From NCBI GenBank assembly GCA_017608345.1, contig JAFCGA010000001.1:1-33765 (forward strand): a stretch of 33,765 nt of DNA. The letters are read 5' to 3'. The DNA is from Candidatus Pacearchaeota archaeon. GTDB taxonomy: Archaea > Nanobdellota > Nanobdellia > UBA10117 > JAFCGA01. The position numbers were made by a program, and so were the translations under genes. Positions 3,841 to 31,089 of the stretch are shown here, piece by piece. The notes beneath the pieces are model-generated. The model saw nothing but the letters and a program-made list of their open reading frames with translations, did not search any database and was not told the origin of the DNA. Numbering within the stretch: position 1 is the first letter of the stretch; the number at the start of each line of letters is the position of its first letter.

Positions 3841-4200
3841 TTATTCTTTAGTTCTAAAGAAGTGGCTCTTGCACTTGCAATCCGAACATCCAAAATTTAA
3901 TACAGCTTCACCTTTGATCCTGGCAGCAATTTCACATTCTTCTTTCTTATTAGATGGAAGTTTAGTTATGTCTACAACTTTAATGTAAGGATGAGAAAGC
4001 AAATAATCAATATGCCAGTGCTTCTTTTCAGTTTCACCCCGGCTAGTTCTCAGATGTCTCTCAGTTCTCTTGTCTATATTGTTCATAGCGGATCCTACAT
4101 AAACGTATTCTCCTGCTTTAAAATCTAGCTCACCTAAGGCTCCGATTTTAATTGTAATATTTTTAGAAATAGAAATGTGTAGTAAATACGCGCCTTTCAC
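3841..4200 (-). CDS. DUF123 (GIY-YIG-like) protein
   Basis: This 119-aa protein matches the archaeal/bacterial DUF123 family: KGAYLLHI at the N-terminus, GEYVYVGSAMNNIDKRTERH, then HWHIDYLL and a Cys-rich end (GCSDCKCKSHFF) that probably binds zinc. The fold is related to GIY-YIG nucleases, but the cellular role is unknown. I choose the GTG at 4200-4198. It gives a 4-bp GTGA overlap with the upstream DUF134 stop and puts the conserved KGAYLL at the start. Starts further upstream (for example ATG at 4224) would add residues that are not typical of the family. It is the last gene of the DUF5320-permease-NifX-DUF134 operon. Confidence 0.8.
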   Translation of the reverse strand: MKGAYLLHISISKNITIKIGALGELDFKAGEYVYVGSAMNNIDKRTERHLRTSRGETEKKHWHIDYLLSHPYIKVVDITKLPSNKKEECEIAARIKGEAVLNFGCSDCKCKSHFFRTKE

Positions 4201-4679
4201 TCTCGGACCAGCTTGCACTCGCATTTCGGACAGACTTCTAAATAGCAAGGAGTTCCTAGCTGGTGTGGTTTTTTGTAACCGCATTTCGGACAGATGCAGT
4301 ATCCTGTGGGTCCTGCTGCAGTTCCACCCATTCGTCCACGTCCGCTAGCTAATCCAGCACCTCTGCCGCTTCCAACTCCCCTTCTTGGTCTTACCATTCT
4401 ATATTCACCTCCTTCGATTTTAATCCCTCTGCCTTCAACTAACGCAGACGCTACTTTCTTATGCGATGATTCTATAATTCTTGAGAAGGTTGGCTGAGAG
4501 ACATTCATTTCTTTGGCGCATTTAGCTTGAGTTTTTCCTTCCAAGTCTCTTAGTCGGATTGCTTCCAGCTCAGGTAAAGTCAGACCGATATCCTCAACGC
4601 CAACTCTAGCTTGCGCTGGCTTAAAGTAATTAACATCTGGTCGGAATCTGATTCTTCTGCGCAGTAATGGTCTTGGCAT
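4197..4679 (-). CDS. DUF134 DNA-binding protein with C-terminal zinc ribbon
   Basis: DUF134 proteins are small HTH regulators often linked to Fe-S, NifX/NifB or Mrp genes. The family start MPRPLLRRRIRF is present, followed by an HTH of about residues 33-72 (TLPELEAIRLRDLEG, then VSQPTFSRII). Residues 95-125 form a Gly/Arg-rich linker. The C-terminus carries C128, C130, C133 (CICPKCG) and C145, C150, C153, C155, a likely zinc-binding tail of the type often seen on small proteins near NifX-like genes. The gene is 1 bp downstream of the NifX-like gene and overlaps the DUF123 gene by 4 bp. It is the obvious candidate to bind the paired palindromes upstream of the operon (inference). Confidence 0.85.
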   Translation of the reverse strand: MPRPLLRRRIRFRPDVNYFKPAQARVGVEDIGLTLPELEAIRLRDLEGKTQAKCAKEMNVSQPTFSRIIESSHKKVASALVEGRGIKIEGGEYRMVRPRRGVGSGRGAGLASGRGRMGGTAAGPTGYCICPKCGYKKPHQLGTPCYLEVCPKCECKLVRE

Positions 4680-4680
4680 C

Positions 4681-4974
4681 TTAAAGTAGTTCTTTAATTT
4701 TCTTCCCTAGCTCGACTATTTTTATCTCGATTCCCGCAGACTTGAGCGAGTTCTTCATGTGCGGTCCAATATGACCAGCAATGATTAAGTTTACTTTTTC
4801 ATTTTCGAGCATTTTTGCTACGCTTAGCCCCGCGCCGCCGCCAAACTGAAATGGATTTTTAATTGCTTTTATTAGTTTCTTGCCGTCAAAAATCAAATAA
4901 AACGGTGCTCTTCCAGCTATTTCACACATTTGTGCATCCTCGTCTTTTCCCATTGAAGCTATTGCTGTTCTCAT
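4681..4974 (-). CDS. Dinitrogenase iron-molybdenum cofactor family protein (NifX/NafY/NifB C-terminal type)
   Basis: This 97-aa single-domain protein fits the family (MRTAIASMG start, CEIAGRAPFYLIFD, then NLIIAGHIGPHMKNSLKSAGIEI). In nitrogen fixers these domains carry Fe-Mo or Fe-S cluster precursors. Stand-alone archaeal members have no proven role and probably bind an Fe-S or other metal cluster. No nitrogenase genes are nearby, so a role in nitrogen fixation is not supported. It overlaps the upstream permease by 4 bp (ATGA) and sits 1 bp from DUF134, so it is translationally coupled to both. Confidence 0.87.
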   Translation of the reverse strand: MRTAIASMGKDEDAQMCEIAGRAPFYLIFDGKKLIKAIKNPFQFGGGAGLSVAKMLENEKVNLIIAGHIGPHMKNSLKSAGIEIKIVELGKKIKELL

Positions 4975-10226: not shown

Positions 10227-10247
10227 TTATTTCATTTTCTTCGTAAC
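10227..10247 (-). pseudogene. Second copy of the zinc-ribbon gene's 3' end (VTKKMK-stop)
   Basis: On the minus strand this encodes VTKKMK plus stop, the same seven codons that end the gene at 10286, lying 59 bp further downstream. Two codons differ, both synonymously (AAA/AAG and AAG/AAA). The 38 bp between the copies contains the hairpin GACGC-ACA-GCGTC. Another hairpin (CTGCG-T-CGCAG) follows the copy. The match is short, so it rests partly on the three longer cases in this window. Confidence 0.55.
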
Positions 10248-10285
10248 CTTGGACGCACAGCGTCTGAGGTCTAGGAAAAGATGGA

Positions 10286-10678
10286 TTATTTCATCTTTTT
10301 CGTAACGTTAATCTTAAAACCACAAGACTCGCACTCAAACGAGATCGCATCTACGCGAGCTTTTTTACCATTTTCTTTGATGATTGTGACTTTCTTCCGC
10401 TTGAAAGGTACTTGCGTCTCTCCTGACTTTCCGCAAGAAGGGCAAGTATATGCAATGCTAGCGGTTAATGTATCTTCATATTCTTCGCTCGGAATTGATT
10501 TTCCACATGCGCAGATATATTCCTTTGCCCGCATCTTCGGCTTTTTAGGTGTACTGCCACACTCGCACTTTTCCTTGAAAACCCATACTTCTGTCTTACC
10601 TTCCTTCCCGTCTACTATGACAGCTCTGCGAGTATAGTACGCAAGTTCTGACATTGATTTTGGTCTTAGTAATGTCAT
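10286..10678 (-). CDS. Zinc-ribbon protein with multiple Cys pairs (130 aa)
   Basis: At least four Cys clusters are visible: CECG (about residue 38), CACG (about 57), CPSC (about 79) and CESC (about 117). This suggests two zinc ribbons in a small, basic, probably nucleic-acid-binding protein. I cannot name the family; similarity to TFIIS/RPB9-like ribbons is only of the general CxxC type. ATG at 10678 is used; an ATG eight codons later (MSELAYYTRR) is possible. Its last seven codons recur with synonymous changes 59 bp downstream, marking a recoded-tail insertion. Confidence 0.7.
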   Translation of the reverse strand: MTLLRPKSMSELAYYTRRAVIVDGKEGKTEVWVFKEKCECGSTPKKPKMRAKEYICACGKSIPSEEYEDTLTASIAYTCPSCGKSGETQVPFKRKKVTIIKENGKKARVDAISFECESCGFKINVTKKMK

Positions 10679-12986: not shown

Positions 12987-13222
12987 TGCCCCTGCCGAGA
13001 TTCTCGGTCGAACAGTTCTCGCGTAAATTCGAACTAATCCGAATTTGAACTCCCGGACCTCCGGAGTTCTTTTTCTTTCCCCGGGGTTTCTTTTTCTTTG
13101 AAGACCAAGCGGAATGAAATTCCGCGTGGCCAACCGGAACTCGTTCCGGTCTGGAAAATAAAGGCCGCTCGGGTCTTCAGGGTGAGAACCTGAGATGCTT
13201 GGCCGGGCTACACCACAGGGGC
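12987..13222 (-). tRNA. tRNA-Glu (CTC) with two introns in the T arm
   Basis: Acceptor GCCCCTG/CAGGGGC and discriminator A. The D stem is GTGT/GCAT, the anticodon stem TCAGG/CCTGA and the loop TTCTCAC (anticodon CTC, no canonical intron). The T stem is CCGAG (13168-13172) with CTCGG (12995-12999), and a perfect T-loop TTCAAAT sits at 13043-13049. To bring these together two stretches must go: about 118 nt (13050-13167) after position 53 and about 43 nt (13000-13042) after position 60. The spliced tRNA is then 75 nt. Boundaries can slide by up to 3 nt because of GAG and AAT repeats. Intron 1 carries the double-hairpin repeat at 13105-13154. A TATA-like TTTTAAAAAG is about 28 bp upstream. Confidence 0.88.
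13105..13154. repeat. CCAA double-hairpin element, copy 1 (inside tRNA-Glu intron 1)
   Basis: CCAA, stem GCGGAAT/ATTCCGC, GTGG, CCAA, stem CCGGAAC/GTTCCGG, TCTGG. Copies 2 and 3 lie at 24391-24438 and 26119-26169. The frame (CCAA ... TGGCCAA ... TCTGG) is conserved, while stem sequences vary with base pairing kept. Confidence 0.85.
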
Positions 13223-15118: not shown

Positions 15119-15232
15119 TGGGCCCGAAGGGATTCGAACCCTCATCAACCGGTCCGAAGCCGGCCGCACTATTTACCCAACTAAATAGCTTCCGGGTTAC
15201 ACTGAGCTAAAGCTCATTTATGCTACAGGCCC
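15119..15232 (-). tRNA. tRNA-Arg (TCG) with an insertion in the D arm
   Basis: Acceptor GGGCCTG/CGGGCCC, discriminator A, anticodon stem GCCGG/CCGGT, loop CTTCGGA (anticodon TCG) and T arm GAGGG-TTCGAAT-CCCTT are clear. The gene is 114 nt, about 37-40 nt too long, and all the excess lies between position 9 and the anticodon stem. One reading pairs GCAT with GTGC as the D stem and removes 37 nt after A14, with TAAAT and ATTTA paired next to the cut sites. A reading using TAGCTCAG is also possible but leaves a T-T mismatch. A TATA-like CTATTTAAGG is about 27 bp upstream. Confidence 0.85.
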
Positions 15233-17667: not shown

Positions 17668-17861
17668 CGCTCGAGGTAGGACTTGAACCTACAATCTTCT
17701 GGTTTCTTTGAACCAACATCCCTTTTTCTTTCTTGGATGTCTATCTTGGTTGTGATAGCAACTAAGAGATATCGGAAGATTTTCCGATATAGTTCTTTCT
17801 TTTTGGAAAAAGAAAGAAATGACCTAACAGCCAGATGCTCTACCAATTAAGCTACTCAAGC
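17668..17861 (-). tRNA. tRNA-Asn (GTT) with a 121-nt anticodon-loop intron
   Basis: Exon 1 (17825-17861, 37 nt) ends with anticodon GTT plus A37, and exon 2 (17668-17703, 36 nt) begins with A38. Acceptor GCTTGAG/CTCGAGC (one G-T wobble), anticodon stem TCTGG/CCAGA and T-loop TTCAAGT are intact, giving a 73-nt mature tRNA. The intron (17704-17824) is at the canonical 37/38 site but is long. It contains a 12-bp polypyrimidine/polypurine hairpin (17793-17818) and an 8-bp hairpin TATCGGAA/TTCCGATA (17770-17789). No ORF fits in it. Confidence 0.92.
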
Positions 17862-19072: not shown

Positions 19073-19669
19073 ATGAAACAGCTAATTGCGCAAGGCGCAG
19101 AAGCTAAAATCTATCGTTCTAAAAACTGCATCCTAAAAGACAGAATCAAAAAGTCCTACCGCTTACCGCAAATCGATCAGAGACTTAGAACCCTACGAAC
19201 AAAAGCAGAAGCCAGACTGCTGGCGAGAGCTTCTAGAGCTGGCGTTCCAGTGCCAAAAGTCATAACTCAAGAAAAAACAAAGCTAGAAATAGAATTTCTA
19301 GATGGACCAAAACTACGAGACTGGATCGATGCTCAGGAAGATTTAGACGCTCTCAAGAAAGTTCTGAAAACAGTTGGACAGCTGACAAATAAGCTACATG
19401 AAGCAAATGTGATCCACGGTGATCTAACAACTTCTAATCTTATCAAGTTAGCAGATCTTTATTTCATCGATTTCGGCTTAGGAACTTTCTCAACGAGACT
19501 TGAAGACAAAGCAGTCGACCTTCATTTATTTAAAGAATGCCTCAAAAGTAAGCATTATACTCATTGGCTAACTCTTTGGAAAGCTTTCAAACAAGGGTAT
19601 AAAACTGAAGACGTCTTCCAACAATTAGAGCGAGTCGAAGCGCGAGGGAGATATAAAAAAGGAGCTTAA
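19073..19669 (+). CDS. bud32: Bud32 kinase/ATPase of the KEOPS complex
   Basis: Bud32 is a small RIO-like kinase that supports Kae1 in making t6A37 in tRNAs. The 198 residues show QGAEAKIYR (P-loop), the invariant Lys in ILKDRIKK, HEANVIHGDLTTSNLIK (catalytic loop, about residues 113-129), FIDFGLG (metal-binding DFG) and the C-terminal RGRYKKG needed by the family. It is free-standing, not fused to Kae1, and kae1 is not in the window. It is 1 bp from the following PHP gene. A TATA-like TTACTTATAAATC lies about 30 bp upstream. Confidence 0.93.
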   Translation: MKQLIAQGAEAKIYRSKNCILKDRIKKSYRLPQIDQRLRTLRTKAEARLLARASRAGVPVPKVITQEKTKLEIEFLDGPKLRDWIDAQEDLDALKKVLKTVGQLTNKLHEANVIHGDLTTSNLIKLADLYFIDFGLGTFSTRLEDKAVDLHLFKECLKSKHYTHWLTLWKAFKQGYKTEDVFQQLERVEARGRYKKGA

Positions 19670-20542: not shown

Positions 20543-20998
20543 ATCGCACGAATGCATGCAAGAAAGAAAGGAAAATCTGGCTCAAAGAAGCCTCTAGCTA
20601 CGACTCCACCGTCTTGGATAAATTATAAACCTGAAGAAATCAAGACGCTTGTAGTTAAGTTAGCTAAACAAGAATTATCAACTAGCGAGATTGGACTCAC
20701 GTTGCGAGATGTTTATGGTATTCCTGACGTGCGAATGAGCACTAAGCAAAAAATAACGCAGATTCTAAAGGAAAAGAATTTGTCATCTAAGCTCCCAGAA
20801 GATTTGCAAAATCTTATACGAAAAGTCGTTAAACTCCAAAAACATTTAACTATTAATAAGAAAGATAAATTCTCTAAGCGAGGATTACAGCTTACTGAAG
20901 CTAAGATAAGACGATTAATTAAATATTATAAGCGCAATGCTAAATTGCCAAAGGATTGGAAATACGATCCAGCTAGAGCGGAGTTATTAGTAAGATAA
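20543..20998 (+). CDS. rpsO: 30S ribosomal protein uS15, start codon ambiguous
   Basis: Archaeal S15 (about 150 aa) begins MARMHARKKGKSGSKKP. Here the matching residues are I-A-R-M-H-A-R, so the family start falls on an ATC codon at 20543, exactly 8 nt after the Shine-Dalgarno GGAGG (20530-20534). An in-frame ATG lies at 20552 (17 nt from the Shine-Dalgarno, losing three residues), and another at 20519 (upstream of the Shine-Dalgarno, adding eight non-conserved residues). The remainder (PPSWINYKPEEIKTLVVKL, GLTLRDVYGIPDV, LQLTEAKIRRLIKYYKRN) is typical. It overlaps eS1 by one base (TAATG). Confidence 0.85.
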   Translation: MARMHARKKGKSGSKKPLATTPPSWINYKPEEIKTLVVKLAKQELSTSEIGLTLRDVYGIPDVRMSTKQKITQILKEKNLSSKLPEDLQNLIRKVVKLQKHLTINKKDKFSKRGLQLTEAKIRRLIKYYKRNAKLPKDWKYDPARAELLVR

Positions 20999-21570
20999 TG
21001 GCTAAGACGAGAAAAGTATCAGCAAAGGATAAGAGAAAGAAGAAGTGGTTCGCAGTCCTAGCACCGAAAATATTTGGCGAGCGGAATCTCCCAGATATAG
21101 TCGCATTCGAGCCAAAGGAATTAATTGGCAGAAAGATCGAAATAAGCCTTAAGATTTTTACAGCTAGCCCACGAGATGCACTTAAGCGAGTAGTTTGTAA
21201 GATTGTCAAAGTTGAAGGAGACACAGCACACACCGAAGCTTGTAGGTTCTTTATTGCAGATAATTATATACAGCGGGTTTCAAAGCGCTCAAAATCTCGC
21301 GTATTAAAAATTCATACTGCTAAAACTAAAGATGGGAAGACTGCTAAGTTGAAGTTGTACACACTAATTACTAATAAAGTTAAAAGAGATATTAAGACGA
21401 CAATTAGTAAATATATGGTGGATACGGTCTCAAGGGAAGTTAGCAAGGCGACCTCGCAAGAAATATTTTCACCGAAATTTATAGATTCTGTTTTCGCAGA
21501 TAAGAAACATATAAATAAGGTTTACCCGATTGCTAAAATGCTTATTTGGAAGATTAGCTTAGTAGAATAA
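20998..21570 (+). CDS. rps3ae: 30S ribosomal protein eS1 (S3Ae)
   Basis: This 190-aa protein matches archaeal eS1, located on the 30S platform near the mRNA exit. Visible are KWFAVLAPKIFGERNLPD, VVCKIVKVEGDTAHTEACRFF and DIKTTISKYMVDTVSREVSKAT, close to the family. The basic N-terminus and length are normal. It is co-transcribed with uS15 and convergent with aCPSF1. Its stop is only 14 bp from the displaced tail copy of that gene. Confidence 0.93.
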   Translation: MAKTRKVSAKDKRKKKWFAVLAPKIFGERNLPDIVAFEPKELIGRKIEISLKIFTASPRDALKRVVCKIVKVEGDTAHTEACRFFIADNYIQRVSKRSKSRVLKIHTAKTKDGKTAKLKLYTLITNKVKRDIKTTISKYMVDTVSREVSKATSQEIFSPKFIDSVFADKKHINKVYPIAKMLIWKISLVE

Positions 21571-21584
21571 ATTCTTTTAATTGA

Positions 21585-21632
21585 TTATCTTAATCTTATT
21601 GCATCAAGATTTCTCGGAGCAGTTGTATCGAA
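21585..21632 (-). pseudogene. Displaced second copy of the aCPSF1 3' end
   Basis: On the minus strand it encodes FDTTAPRNLDAIRLR plus stop. The functional gene ends VETTAPRNLDAIRLR. From ACA on, 17 nt are identical between copies, and then seven of the last eight codons differ, all synonymously (AAC/AAT, TTA/CTT, GAC/GAT, GCT/GCA, ATT/ATA, CGA/AGA, CTT/TTA), as does the stop (TAG/TAA). This pattern requires past selection on the encoded protein and rules out a simple recent duplication. Confidence 0.85.
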
Positions 21633-21746
21633 CGCACCTTTTACTTCGCACGTGACCGGCTCGCAAAAGCTATCACGAAACAAGTTCCGCGAAACCACGC
21701 GAACAAGTTCGCTAGGTGCACTAAAAGTCTTAAGCTAACTGAAGAA
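21633..21746. mobile_element. Structured insert between the two aCPSF1 tails
   Basis: About 114 bp with a branched inverted-repeat layout: outer arms GCACCT (21634-21639) and AGGTGC (21714-21719), inner pairs CGTGA/TCACG (21651-21655, 21673-21677) and GCGAAC/GTTCGC (21699-21704, 21707-21712). There is no ORF. Calling it a mobile element is inference from its position between recoded tails. Confidence 0.5.
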
Positions 21747-23624
21747 CTATCTAAGTCGAATAGCGTCTAAGTTTCTCGGAGCAGTTGTTTCAACTCTGAA
21801 TTTTTTATGGCAGGTTGAGGCGATATTTAGGCATTTGGAGTTTTCTCCGTGAACTACTATAATTCGACGAGGTGTAGGTCGCATTTTTTCAACGTAGCCA
21901 ATGATTTCATTAAATCCGGAGTGGCCGGTTAAACCGGCGATTGTGTGTACGTCCATCTTCAGTTCAATCTCTTTTTTCTCTCCTTCGATTTTTAATCTAG
22001 TCTCTCCACTCTGAATTGTGTGACCTAGTGATCCTGGACCTTGATAGCATACGAAGATTAGCTGATTCTTTTTATTTCCAGCTAGCTCTTTCAAGTACGT
22101 TACAGATGGTCCGCCGACAAGCATACCCGACGTGGCTAGAATCACACAAGGCTTTCCGTCAATGACTTCATCCCGCTCTTTTTTGCCACCTACTCGTTTG
22201 AAAGTTTTAGATAGGAACGGATCGTCCTTGGCGTAGAAGATTTGCTCGCGAATGTCCTTGTTCAAGAACTCTGGATAAGAATTGCAGATAGCATTTATTT
22301 CCCCAATCATTCCATCAATGTAGATTGGCGCCTTGATCTTCTCTTTCTTAAAGAACTTTTCAAGTATGATCATGACTTCCTGCGCTCTTCCAACTCCGAG
22401 AACTGGAACCAGAACTTTCCCCTTTTTCTTAAGAGTCTTTCTAATGAGGTCGCAGATTTCTTTTTCAGAATCTTTTCGCGGTGGAAGTACATTTTCGCTT
22501 CCCCCGTATGTGCTTTCAGTGATCAATGTCTCAACTCGTTGAAATTCATGATGCGCGGGGTTAAGTAATTGAGTTCGCTTTGTCTTATAATCGCCAGTGT
22601 ATAAAACGTTGTGCCAGCCCTCACCAATATGTAGGTGAACTAGCGAACTGCCAACTATGTGACCCGCATTGTATAGCGTGATTCGAATGTCTGGTGTTAT
22701 ATCTGTGACTTCTCCGTAATCCAGCACAATTGTATTTTTGATAGCTGCCTTGACTTCATTGCTGCTATATATTGCTTTCTTAGCTTGCGCAAATCCAACG
22801 TCAATATAGTCTAATTGCAAAAGAGCCATTGTATCTCGTGTTGGCGCAGTGCAATAAACTGGGCCGTCATAGCCGTATTTAAATAAATATGGTAGAAATC
22901 CGCAGTGATCTAAATGCGCGTGGGAGATGATAACTGCATCTATATTCGAGAGGTCTACTTCTGGAGCAGCTAGATAAGGATAGCCATGCTTATCTGAAGC
23001 AACATTTACTCCGCAATCAATTAAGACCTTGGACTCTGGCGTTTGCAACAAAAAGCAACTACGTCCGACTTGTCTAGCGCCACCTAAACAACTAATTCTG
23101 GCCCACATGTCATCTCCTGAGCTCTTTTTTTCTTCATAAATCCGTTCCCCAACTCGGTTTAAGAACTTTCGCCGCTCAGCGCTGTCTTTGTAGAGCACAG
23201 ATCGAATTCCTTTAGTGATTTTAGAAGGTAAAACTGACTCCCGCTTAACGATTGGAGTCCATAAAGTCTTTTCTTTTATTTTCCGTAGATTAGCACCGCT
23301 TTTTCCAATAGCTTCTCCCGGATTCTTTGCTTCGATTGTTATTAATGATCTAGCAGGTTCTAATATAATATCTGTTACTTCTGCTTTCTTTGGTAGGATC
23401 TTCCGAACTTCTTTTTCAGTCGCTTCCACGTCCATTCGAATAGAAGAATCTGCGCGCAAGTCGATTCGCTTCTTGAATTCATCAACTACGCAATGAATTA
23501 TATCTCCACCTTGTCTGAAGAATTTCTTGTTCTTCGTATAAAGAACTATATTTGCGCCTTCATAGCTATGGCTAGCGATATTTGCATCGTCTGGCAATTT
23601 TTCTAGAATCTTATCTATTATCAT
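21747..23624 (-). CDS. Archaeal CPSF1-type ribonuclease (KH, metallo-beta-lactamase, beta-CASP)
   Basis: aCPSF1 (FttA) cleaves RNA 3' ends and terminates transcription in archaea. The 625 residues hold an N-terminal KH region (about 1-145), a metallo-beta-lactamase domain with SHAHLDHCGFLP (about 232) and TGDYKTKRTQLL (about 342), and a beta-CASP domain with VLVPVLGVGRAQEV (about 400), SGMLVGGPSVTYL (about 505) and a late HTIAGLTGHSGFNEI. All metal-binding motifs are present. psmB is 48 bp upstream on the same strand. The last eight codons are recoded relative to a displaced copy at 21585. Confidence 0.94.
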   Translation of the reverse strand: MIIDKILEKLPDDANIASHSYEGANIVLYTKNKKFFRQGGDIIHCVVDEFKKRIDLRADSSIRMDVEATEKEVRKILPKKAEVTDIILEPARSLITIEAKNPGEAIGKSGANLRKIKEKTLWTPIVKRESVLPSKITKGIRSVLYKDSAERRKFLNRVGERIYEEKKSSGDDMWARISCLGGARQVGRSCFLLQTPESKVLIDCGVNVASDKHGYPYLAAPEVDLSNIDAVIISHAHLDHCGFLPYLFKYGYDGPVYCTAPTRDTMALLQLDYIDVGFAQAKKAIYSSNEVKAAIKNTIVLDYGEVTDITPDIRITLYNAGHIVGSSLVHLHIGEGWHNVLYTGDYKTKRTQLLNPAHHEFQRVETLITESTYGGSENVLPPRKDSEKEICDLIRKTLKKKGKVLVPVLGVGRAQEVMIILEKFFKKEKIKAPIYIDGMIGEINAICNSYPEFLNKDIREQIFYAKDDPFLSKTFKRVGGKKERDEVIDGKPCVILATSGMLVGGPSVTYLKELAGNKKNQLIFVCYQGPGSLGHTIQSGETRLKIEGEKKEIELKMDVHTIAGLTGHSGFNEIIGYVEKMRPTPRRIIVVHGENSKCLNIASTCHKKFRVETTAPRNLDAIRLR

Positions 23625-24375: not shown

Positions 24376-24448
24376 TTTCTTTTCTTTGGACCAAGCGAAC
24401 TTCGTTCGCGTGGCCAAGCGGAACTCATTTCGCTCTGGAGAAAAGAAA
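24376..24448. repeat. CCAA double-hairpin element, copy 2, with polypyrimidine/polypurine arms
   Basis: Core 24391-24438: CCAA, GCGAAC/GTTCGC, GTGG, CCAA, GCGGAA/TTTCGC (one G-T wobble), TCTGG. Outer arms TTTCTTTTCT (24376-24385) and AGAAAAGAAA (24439-24448) pair perfectly. It lies in the 337-bp gap between psmB and L7Ae, which holds no ORF over 30 codons. Confidence 0.85.
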
Positions 24449-25374: not shown

Positions 25375-25647
25375 ATGGCAAAGCATCAAAACCAGAAAAA
25401 GAAGCAGGGAAAAGCTGGTATGAAAATAGAAACTAGCGATAATGCTTGGGCTGGCGAAGTTGTAGAGATTGCTGGAAAGATTAGTTCTAAACAAGGCGGA
25501 ATGCAAGTTCGTTGTAAGGTTCTGCAAGGTTCAGATGAAGGAAAGATTATGCGAAGAAATGTTCAAGGTCCGATTAAACTTGGCGATATTCTCATGCTAA
25601 AACAGACCGAAATCGAAGCACAAGCGCTTAGGGGCGGAAGGAGATGA
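25375..25647 (+). CDS. rps28e: 30S ribosomal protein eS28 with N-terminal extension
   Basis: The core from about residue 25 (AGEVVEIAGKISSKQGGMQVRCKVLQGSDEGKIMRRNVQGPIKLGDILMLKQTEIEA) is archaeal eS28. The usual protein is about 70 aa; this one has about 20 extra basic residues at the N-terminus. ATG at 25375 overlaps the stop of a 13-codon upstream ORF (TAATG), and an internal ATG (codon 16) is an alternative. The last ten codons are recoded relative to a second copy of the gene's end at 25719-25769, eight of them differing synonymously. Confidence 0.9.
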   Translation: MAKHQNQKKKQGKAGMKIETSDNAWAGEVVEIAGKISSKQGGMQVRCKVLQGSDEGKIMRRNVQGPIKLGDILMLKQTEIEAQALRGGRR

Positions 25648-25718
25648 TCTTCTTAGATAGAAGTCTTTTGGCCTCGGTTTTGCCGAGCTGCGATAAGCTA
25701 ACGAGGGAAAAGCGAGTG
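25648..25718. mobile_element. Structured insert between the two eS28 tails
   Basis: About 71 bp of non-coding sequence. Arms CTTTT..CCTCG (25665-25669, 25672-25676) pair with CGAGG.AAAAG (25702-25706, 25708-25712). A smaller pair CTTCT/AGAAG lies before them and CTCGG/CCGAG overlaps the arm. The mobile label is inference from context. Confidence 0.5.
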
Positions 25719-25769
25719 ATTAAACAGACCGAAATCGAGGCGCAAGCCTTACGCGGAGGTCGTAGATAA
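25719..25769 (+). pseudogene. Displaced original 3' end of eS28
   Basis: Encodes IKQTEIEAQALRGGRR plus stop, the same residues as the functional eS28 end (LKQTEIEAQALRGGRR). After 17 identical nt (25722-25738), eight of ten codons differ synonymously (for example GCA/GCG, CTT/TTA, AGG/CGC, AGG/CGT), and the stop is TAA instead of TGA. Its stop overlaps the eL24 start (TAATG), so this was the original gene end in the operon. Confidence 0.9.
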
Positions 25770-25948
25770 TGCCCAACTGTAATTATTGCAAAGTTGATAT
25801 TCCAAAAGGAACTGGTACGCTGTATATCAAGAAAAGCGGCAAGTTTGCCTATTTCTGCTCATCTAAGTGCGGAAAGAACGCTCTTAAGCACAAGATCAAG
25901 CCAGCAAAAAAGAAATGGAGCGCTAAATTAAAAGTTCCTAAGAAATAA
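25769..25948 (+). CDS. rpl24e: 50S ribosomal protein eL24
   Basis: This 59-aa zinc-ribbon ribosomal protein begins MPNCNYCKVDIPKGTGTLY. Cys4, Cys7, Cys30 and Cys34 bind zinc (FCSSKC). A basic tail ends in WSAKLKVPKK. It is normally the partner of eS28 in archaeal operons. The start overlaps the displaced eS28 stop, so translation may be uncoupled from the functional eS28, which now stops 120 bp earlier. The last ten residues are repeated at 26052-26084. Confidence 0.93.
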   Translation: MPNCNYCKVDIPKGTGTLYIKKSGKFAYFCSSKCGKNALKHKIKPAKKKWSAKLKVPKK

Positions 25949-26051
25949 TTTATTCTGAGTTTTGGCCTTGCTTTTGTGAACTCTGACACGTCGGAAGCAG
26001 AGCTTCCTCGTGCCTTACTTCGTGCTCCGCACTCGCAAGGAAAGCGAGAGT
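25949..26051. mobile_element. Structured insert between the two eL24 tails, with CACGTC hairpin
   Basis: About 103 bp. Outer arms CCTTGC (25966-25971) and GCAAGG (26035-26040) enclose two hairpins: the CACGTC element at 25987-26012 (CACG-TC-GGAAGC, AGA, GCTTCC-T-CGTG) and GTGC-TCC-GCAC (26022-26032). No ORF is seen. The layout matches the aCPSF1 insert: one outer stem and two inner hairpins. Confidence 0.5.
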
Positions 26052-26084
26052 TGGTCTGCTAAATTAAAAGTTCCTAAGAAATAG
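26052..26084 (+). pseudogene. Second copy of the eL24 3' end
   Basis: Encodes WSAKLKVPKK plus stop, identical in protein to the eL24 end. The Ser codon is TCT instead of AGC, a synonymous change that needs several base changes, and the stop is TAG instead of TAA. The other 26 nt are identical. Confidence 0.85.
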
Positions 26085-26111: not shown

Positions 26112-26183
26112 CTCGCTTCCAGAGCGGAATTTATTCCGCTTGGCCAAGAGAATCTTTGATTCTCTCTGGTTTTTAAAAGCGAG
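26112..26183. repeat. CCAA double-hairpin element, copy 3, with 7-bp outer arms
   Basis: Core 26119-26169: CCAGA, GCGGAAT/ATTCCGC, TTGG, CCAA, GAGAATC/GATTCTC, TCTGG. Outer arms CTCGCTT (26112-26118) and AAGCGAG (26177-26183) pair perfectly. The stem GCGGAAT/ATTCCGC is shared with copy 1 in the tRNA-Glu intron. Confidence 0.85.
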
Positions 26184-29946: not shown

Positions 29947-29968
29947 TTGACCATAAAAGAGCATCACG

Positions 29969-30017
29969 CTTAAAAGACTTACGTAGGGCGATAATTTGAG
30001 ATAGTAAGTATCACGAA
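29969..30017 (-). promoter_or_regulatory. Promoter module, copy A
   Basis: 49 bp that match 31041-31089 at about three quarters of positions without gaps. Exact blocks are CTTAAAAG (TATA on the minus strand), CTTACG, GATAA and TAAGTATCACGAA. It serves the gene starting at 29946. Confidence 0.7.
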
Positions 30018-31017: not shown

Positions 31018-31040
31018 ATTCACCTATTAAGAACGTCATG

Positions 31041-31089
31041 CTTAAAAGGCTTACGCTAAGAGATAACTAAAAATACTAAGTATCACGAA
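31041..31089 (-). promoter_or_regulatory. Promoter module, copy B
   Basis: Second copy of the 49-bp module. The distal block TAAGTATCACGAA is identical to copy A, and the proximal CTTAAAAG lies 24-31 bp from the chosen start at 31017. The spacing between blocks is identical in both copies. Confidence 0.7.

Follow-up and report, generated by a model that had tools for sequence, protein, structure and literature searches.

The gene for the termination factor aCPSF1 (FttA) has two 3' ends in the stretch of Candidatus Pacearchaeota archaeon DNA analyzed here, 33,765 nucleotides (nt) of genome G000, referred to below as the window. The locus reads, in order, working gene end, hairpin element, and a stranded, native-like second end, and the two ends differ only synonymously; both the order and the differences are seen directly in the DNA. 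We see an even chance that a miniature non-coding element has integrated in the gene end and that the gene was rebuilt by a diverged end, by a mechanism of insertion that we infer. The first-pass annotation had singled out this locus as the cleanest single case. Instead, aCPSF1 is one of many genes concerned, a 5' end and tRNA genes are affected as well, and the insert is one of a family.

The working aCPSF1 gene encodes KH, lactamase, beta-CASP and RMMBL domains and ends in TTAPRNLDAIRLR-TAG; a second coding copy of this peptide, closed by TAA, lies at 21626-21585. The upstream end reads ACAACTGCTCCGAGAAA CTTAGACGCTATTCGACTTAGA TAG, and the downstream copy repeats the same 17 nt (ACAACTGCTCCGAGAAA) before continuing as TCTTGATGCAATAAGATTAAGA TAA. 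The pair differs at 9 nt, which change 7 of 13 codons (7 among the last 8) and leave the protein unaltered; under random single changes, the probability that all differences would be synonymous is 5e-6. Our comparison thus bears out what had been noted at first sight: two 3' ends of which the upstream one is the working end, 17 shared nt, seven of eight recoded codons, all synonymous, and a different stop. In the scan for such copies the aCPSF1 case scored 44.5, and none of 1,972 shuffled controls scored above 18.5; as a further control, no stop-anchored copy of this quality was found upstream of genes in the same sample. Seven changed codons of eight fit two independent synonymous draws (5.2 expected, P = 0.15), and the recoding is therefore saturation, not "maximal" recoding. 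The restored peptide is important, for in other archaea an aCPSF1 that lacks its C-terminal 12-13 residues neither dimerises nor terminates transcription (PMC8716108).

From the first stop to ACAACT the spacer measures 120 nt, 114 of which had been described as a structured insert, and it contains no gene or open reading frame (ORF). The predicted outer stem and inner hairpins do exist, but as an isolated argument the fold is weak (z = -1.5; 16 of 200 shuffled sequences fold equally well). On its far side, the stranded end lies 14 nt from the stop codon of the convergent S3Ae gene (20998-21570, + strand).

Which of the two ends is native? The first-pass annotation had proposed to settle this by comparison with relatives, and the comparison, once run, identifies the downstream copy as native-like and the upstream, working copy as recoded, judging by codon use and sequence matches. 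The arginine of the "(I/L/V)RL" motif is encoded by AGR in 10/10 undivided aCPSF1 genes of the order and in 5/5 downstream copies, and by CGN in 4/5 upstream copies. Of 378 genomes of the class, 19 matched the downstream copy better and 9 the upstream copy, with a query that also held a few gene-body bases beside the upstream copy. The ribosomal protein gene S28e points the same way: there the downstream copy runs into the start of L24e, an overlap expected of a native operon. In the relative G007, the S28e recoding lies mainly in the duplicated stretch (codon differences private to G007 at 7/16 positions there and at 5/60 in the body), and the stranded copy keeps at its start the AGA GAG ACA of its genus (G016, G010).

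Within about 350 kb of the 1.05-Mb G000 genome, the sample on which the rates for this genome rest, six genes are followed, at a distance of 113-162 nt, by a second, protein-identical version of their final 7-15 codons: S28e, aCPSF1, aIF2gamma, L24e, an MBL-fold protein and a MacB/FtsX permease (gene names outside the window were read from sequence unless checked in the analysis). A weaker case at 10227-10309 brings the number of genes with a duplicated 3' end to seven. In aCPSF1, S28e and aIF2gamma alike, 17 identical nt beside the insertion point are followed by near-saturated synonymous change (P ~0.005 each), and the changed parts look like sequence from two independent lineages. Across 12 pairs there are 86 nt differences, all synonymous within matched codons. 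The clear recoded cases have inserts of 39-225 nt, and the frame offset between the two ends is mostly not a multiple of three. The duplication mostly stops at the stop codon, even at 100% identity. Some pairs are identical or nearly so (FtsX, many in the relative G009, and S14 in G007), and recoding is therefore not required at birth. In aIF2gamma, both ends of the gene are duplicated and recoded; at its 5' end a stranded, native head (53 nt) is followed by a family X hairpin (described below) in reverse orientation and then by the recoded working head. This gene is thus flanked on both sides by stranded native and recoded working ends (L041:17870-18048 and 19171-19362), and the leftover ORF of its head stops 3 nt before the working ATG.

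A common hairpin, which we call family X, occurs in the G000 inserts at S28e, L24e, the MBL-fold gene, FtsX and the aIF2gamma head. It consists of a 4-bp stem, usually a mismatch, and then a TTTT/AAAA stem. The 4-bp stem varies by compensating changes (CTCG/CGAG, CCAC/GTGG, CTCA/TGAG, CTTG/CGAG); the aCPSF1 insert has the stem GCAC/GTGC and an extra hairpin inside, and the aIF2gamma 3' insert is not clearly a member. These stems were compared by eye and by scan, as MAFFT alignments were too poor for a covariance model. Signature hairpins are enriched between genes relative to shuffled sequence (22 vs 2 in G000, 57 vs 4 in G009). In the G000 sample, long-loop family X hairpins border a duplicated gene end, whereas short-loop palindromes mostly do not. 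The 3' foot of the hairpin touches the stranded end in tail cases and also, in reverse orientation, at the aIF2gamma head; because the foot abuts the stranded end in that orientation too, the event is one at the DNA level. The mirrored aIF2gamma arrangement would fit a DNA element and not an RNA signal. Searched against the 378 genomes of the class, the aCPSF1 insert itself had no match, only the gene ends matching, and Rfam returned tRNAs only in the window and nothing in three G007 loci. Another dispersed hairpin family (CGCGTGGCCAAGCGGAACT..TTCGCTCTGG) occupies intergenic positions 13107-13158, 24396-24442 and 26118-26152 of the window, without gene-end copies.

Among relatives, the duplicated aCPSF1 end is present in 5/15 genomes of the order (the relatives being G009, G007, G002 and G017), and outside the order in 0/14 aCPSF1 loci examined. 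S28e is duplicated in G005 and G007, aIF2gamma in G005 and S14 in G007, along with others; G009 adds the ends of EF-2 and AsnRS, both named from size and C-terminus only. Shuffled controls yielded almost no such copies across the scans of relatives. Several weak cases (5-6 codons) may be due to chance. Sampled stretches of G001, G004 and G006 contained few or no cases. Duplicated heads are rarer than duplicated tails (6 vs 24 at a score of at least 17), with some of the six low in complexity or questionable on other grounds. In G009, the 3' part of 8/24 tRNA genes, beginning at about the T-loop and ending near the tRNA 3' end, recurs downstream; these repeats lie 81-243 nt away, several behind GGCAACTT-type hairpins (L121, L117, L120, L191, L193, L196). 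The same genome has near-perfect tandem units (YEINWIRP, NHKKG, FMNRIRP) and triple copies (KLSEHQ, AMKEV). At two G009 loci on the - strand, L128 (stop 1187) and L197 (stop 9550), three tandem gene-end copies are separated by different hairpins, and at another (L192, - strand, 3919-4687) the tail copy has four conservative, orthologue-like amino-acid changes (E/D, V/I, H/Y, T/I).

How could such an arrangement arise? In the model that we favor, a small non-coding DNA element would have inserted inside the aCPSF1 3' end, leaving the 13 original terminal codons cut off downstream, and a diverged, protein-identical end on its opposite side would have completed the gene. This new end and the element would arrive together, as do elements that restore the ends of tRNA or protein genes; the shared block of 14-19 nt may be a recombination or target-duplication core, and a recombinase may act in trans. 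At rather less than even chances, we tentatively propose that DPANN archaea harbour a new class of miniature integrative DNA element, recognizable by a hairpin whose 4-bp stem varies while its TTTT/AAAA stem stays constant, and able to enter conserved protein and tRNA gene ends in either orientation. The tolerance of such an element would stem from the protein-identical, recoded gene end that arises on one side of it, making it a natural counterpart of a recoded rescue design, and an enzyme would mobilise it.

Several observations weigh against integration of such an element. There is no recombinase gene in or near the insert. Cas1 is found in 0/18 genomes of the order, Y1 transposases occur in G001 only, a genome with almost none of these insertions, and tyrosine recombinases are few, two of them elsewhere in G000. 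LAGLIDADG (LAGLIDADG_3) is absent from G000, and TnpB has no match in G000, G009 or G007; none of these five candidate enzymes tracks the distribution of the insertions. Because the hairpin family is genome-specific and the gene ends are site-specific, one fixed-target element cannot explain the pattern. In G009, many duplications are 100% identical, and this fits a duplicated target no less well than an end brought in by the element. Finally, the upstream aCPSF1 end of G007, together with its 3' hairpin, is common to G016, a genome without the duplication, and to judge from this shared sequence the upstream end may be the older one in G007.

Other processes could place two gene ends in tandem. 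One-sided homologous recombination with DNA of a related cell is unlikely but a serious contender: a donor gene end with its flanking hairpin would recombine in the gene and be joined illegitimately before the native end, and the recoding would be the divergence between donor and recipient. Right-hand parts at synonymous saturation, as between separate lineages, unrelated sequences past the stop, and one case with conservative, orthologue-like amino-acid changes (EWYVHHSLTRVITEIKV / DWYIHYSLTRVIIEIKV) all speak for a donor. Yet random fragments would not be expected to give junctions with a fixed foot from a single hairpin family, inserts of 39-225 nt and dozens of cases, and the body of S28e in G007 is not foreign. 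The tandem units and triple copies of G009, together with the graded series of identities, would suit a process that we consider improbable but likewise a contender, in which replication template switching duplicates the gene end with its 3' hairpin and the copies then diverge while both ends are coding, gene conversion keeping stretches identical. This would leave unexplained why the hairpin foot touches the stranded end in both orientations; moreover, a free second copy should gain amino-acid changes, but the 86 differences in the 12 pairs are all synonymous, and in G007 the S14 ends are identical (51/51 nt) although unrelated sequence begins directly past the stop.

Both ends might instead be in use, the spacer and first end forming an intron or a stretch bypassed by the ribosome, with both copies under coding selection. 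The protein sequence is indeed kept in both copies, and as the offset is in most cases no multiple of three, the second end could be reached only through splicing or bypass. We nevertheless regard this as very unlikely: decayed second copies exist, recoding is no help to RNA folding with the insert (perhaps except at one gene), and no RNA signal explains a hairpin at the aIF2gamma head that is the reverse complement of that in tail cases. When the junctions were read by eye only, no convincing bulge-helix-bulge motif of an mRNA intron was apparent. Resequencing that exposed the downstream copy as an assembly artefact had been named as what would overturn the finding, and the compared genomes are largely metagenome-assembled genomes (MAGs). 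An artefact joining two strain variants nonetheless has an almost negligible probability, as several MAGs from different projects share the structure, the protein-perfect recoded pairs and the hairpin family.

Further candidates were considered and set aside. An OMEGA/TnpB guide locus is contradicted by the lack of a TnpB match in G000, G009 and G007, and its guide would also match the 17 nt that are identical in the working gene. At the insertion point, the gene showed no inverted repeat (p = 0.93), and RNA structure between the recoded end and the insert was unsupported as a cause of the recoding, perhaps except at one gene. Recoding beyond synonymous saturation was not seen. Whole-gene foreign replacement is ruled out for G007 S28e by a gene body that is not foreign. 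A diversity-generating retroelement is unsupported, the differences being all synonymous and not amino-acid-changing, although no search aimed at reverse transcriptase was made.

The coordinates of the features in the window are collected in the table. Three other observations were made there. A tRNA (Rfam match) at 17668-17861 on the - strand has an insert of ~118 nt, probably an intron, and is not reported by ARAGORN at default settings; a weak tRNA-like Rfam match at 15119-15178 (-) is just over threshold (29.5 bits). A 61-nt, 77% identical repeat (29957-30017 and 31029-31089) lies just upstream of two neighbouring ORFs and is a possible shared promoter or leader; we rejected it as a gene-end duplication, since it lies upstream of ORFs and not at a gene end.

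Table. Working gene ends, inserted elements and stranded ends in the window.
Feature	Position	Strand	Basis
aCPSF1/FttA gene, working copy, 625 aa	21747..23624	-	ORF and domain analysis
17-nt block (ACAACTGCTCCGAGAAA) identical in downstream copy; presumed insertion/crossover block	21772..21788	-	sequence comparison
Recoded end of working aCPSF1, 7/8 codons changed, stop TAG	21747..21771	-	sequence comparison
Spacer with hairpin element (family X member with extra inner hairpin); 3' foot abuts stranded native-like end	21627..21746	-	fold, hairpin comparison
Stranded native-like aCPSF1 3' end TTAPRNLDAIRLR-TAA	21585..21626	-	sequence, codon comparison
S28e working 3' end (KQTEIEAQALRGGRR-TGA); first 17 nt as in downstream copy, then 8 codons changed	25600..25647	+	sequence comparison
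Family X element at S28e, hairpin CTCG-G-TTTT ... AAAA-G-CGAG	25648..25721	+	hairpin comparison
Stranded native S28e end; TAA overlaps L24e ATG (TAATG)	25722..25769	+	sequence
L24e working 3' end (WSAKLKVPKK-TAA)	25916..25948	+	sequence
Family X element, longer loop, at L24e	25949..26051	+	hairpin comparison
Stranded L24e end (WSAKLKVPKK-TAG), one synonymous codon change (AGC/TCT)	26052..26084	+	sequence comparison
Weaker seventh case: zinc-ribbon ORF 3' end VTKKMK; copy at 10227-10250	10286..10309	-	scan, score

Essential genes, including those for a termination factor, ribosomal proteins, an initiation factor and tRNAs, repeatedly bear these end insertions while the sequence of the product is kept. 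If element and recoded end do travel together, this would be a tiny mobile, non-coding element able to mend its own target gene, in genomes with few known transposases, and it would offer a test bed for gene-end exchange between species. The stranded ends also carry a warning for annotation, in that they resemble coding sequence.

A literature search found no description of gene-end duplications of this kind in these archaea, and the insertions are unlike known systems in their small size, the absence of a gene, the use of one hairpin family at many targets, and the lack of an enzyme that follows their distribution. In E. coli, e14 and phage 21 replace the 3' end of icd with a mostly synonymous, element-borne end, but they are prophage-sized and carry an integrase. 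Islands in tRNA and protein genes (Islander, PMC4383910; thaumarchaeal integrated mobile genetic elements or iMGEs, PMC6563490) likewise restore the gene end and leave a displaced fragment at their other side, using short att repeats (of 13 bp at one protein gene) and 3'-distal regions of genes and tRNAs as targets. We found the direct repeat of the gene end and the restored working gene, and no cognate integrase in the element; those islands are large, gene-bearing and typically integrase-using, whereas ours is a short non-coding hairpin family at many genes. Casposons in ef-2 and tRNA genes (PMC6563490) also make target duplications at gene 3' ends, and G009 has a probable EF-2 site, but the genomes of the order lack Cas1 and there is no long element here. 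REP/REPIN sequences (PMC3116915, PMC3733652) are similarly short, dispersed, intergenic DNA hairpins; in our case, the foot of the hairpin goes with a gene-end duplication, and the Y1 transposase expected of an IS200/IS605 or REP system was found only in G001 and in none of the insertion-rich genomes. The mORF elements of Glomus (and Allomyces) mitochondria produce C-terminal duplications in gene 3' ends (PMC3630166). Theirs carry a homing endonuclease gene of ~1 kb; ours lie in archaeal chromosomes, are non-coding and short, without an endonuclease ORF between the two ends, and affect many genes and also a 5' end. In both systems, the gene is completed by an inserted, mostly synonymous C-terminus, with the native end left behind on the downstream side.
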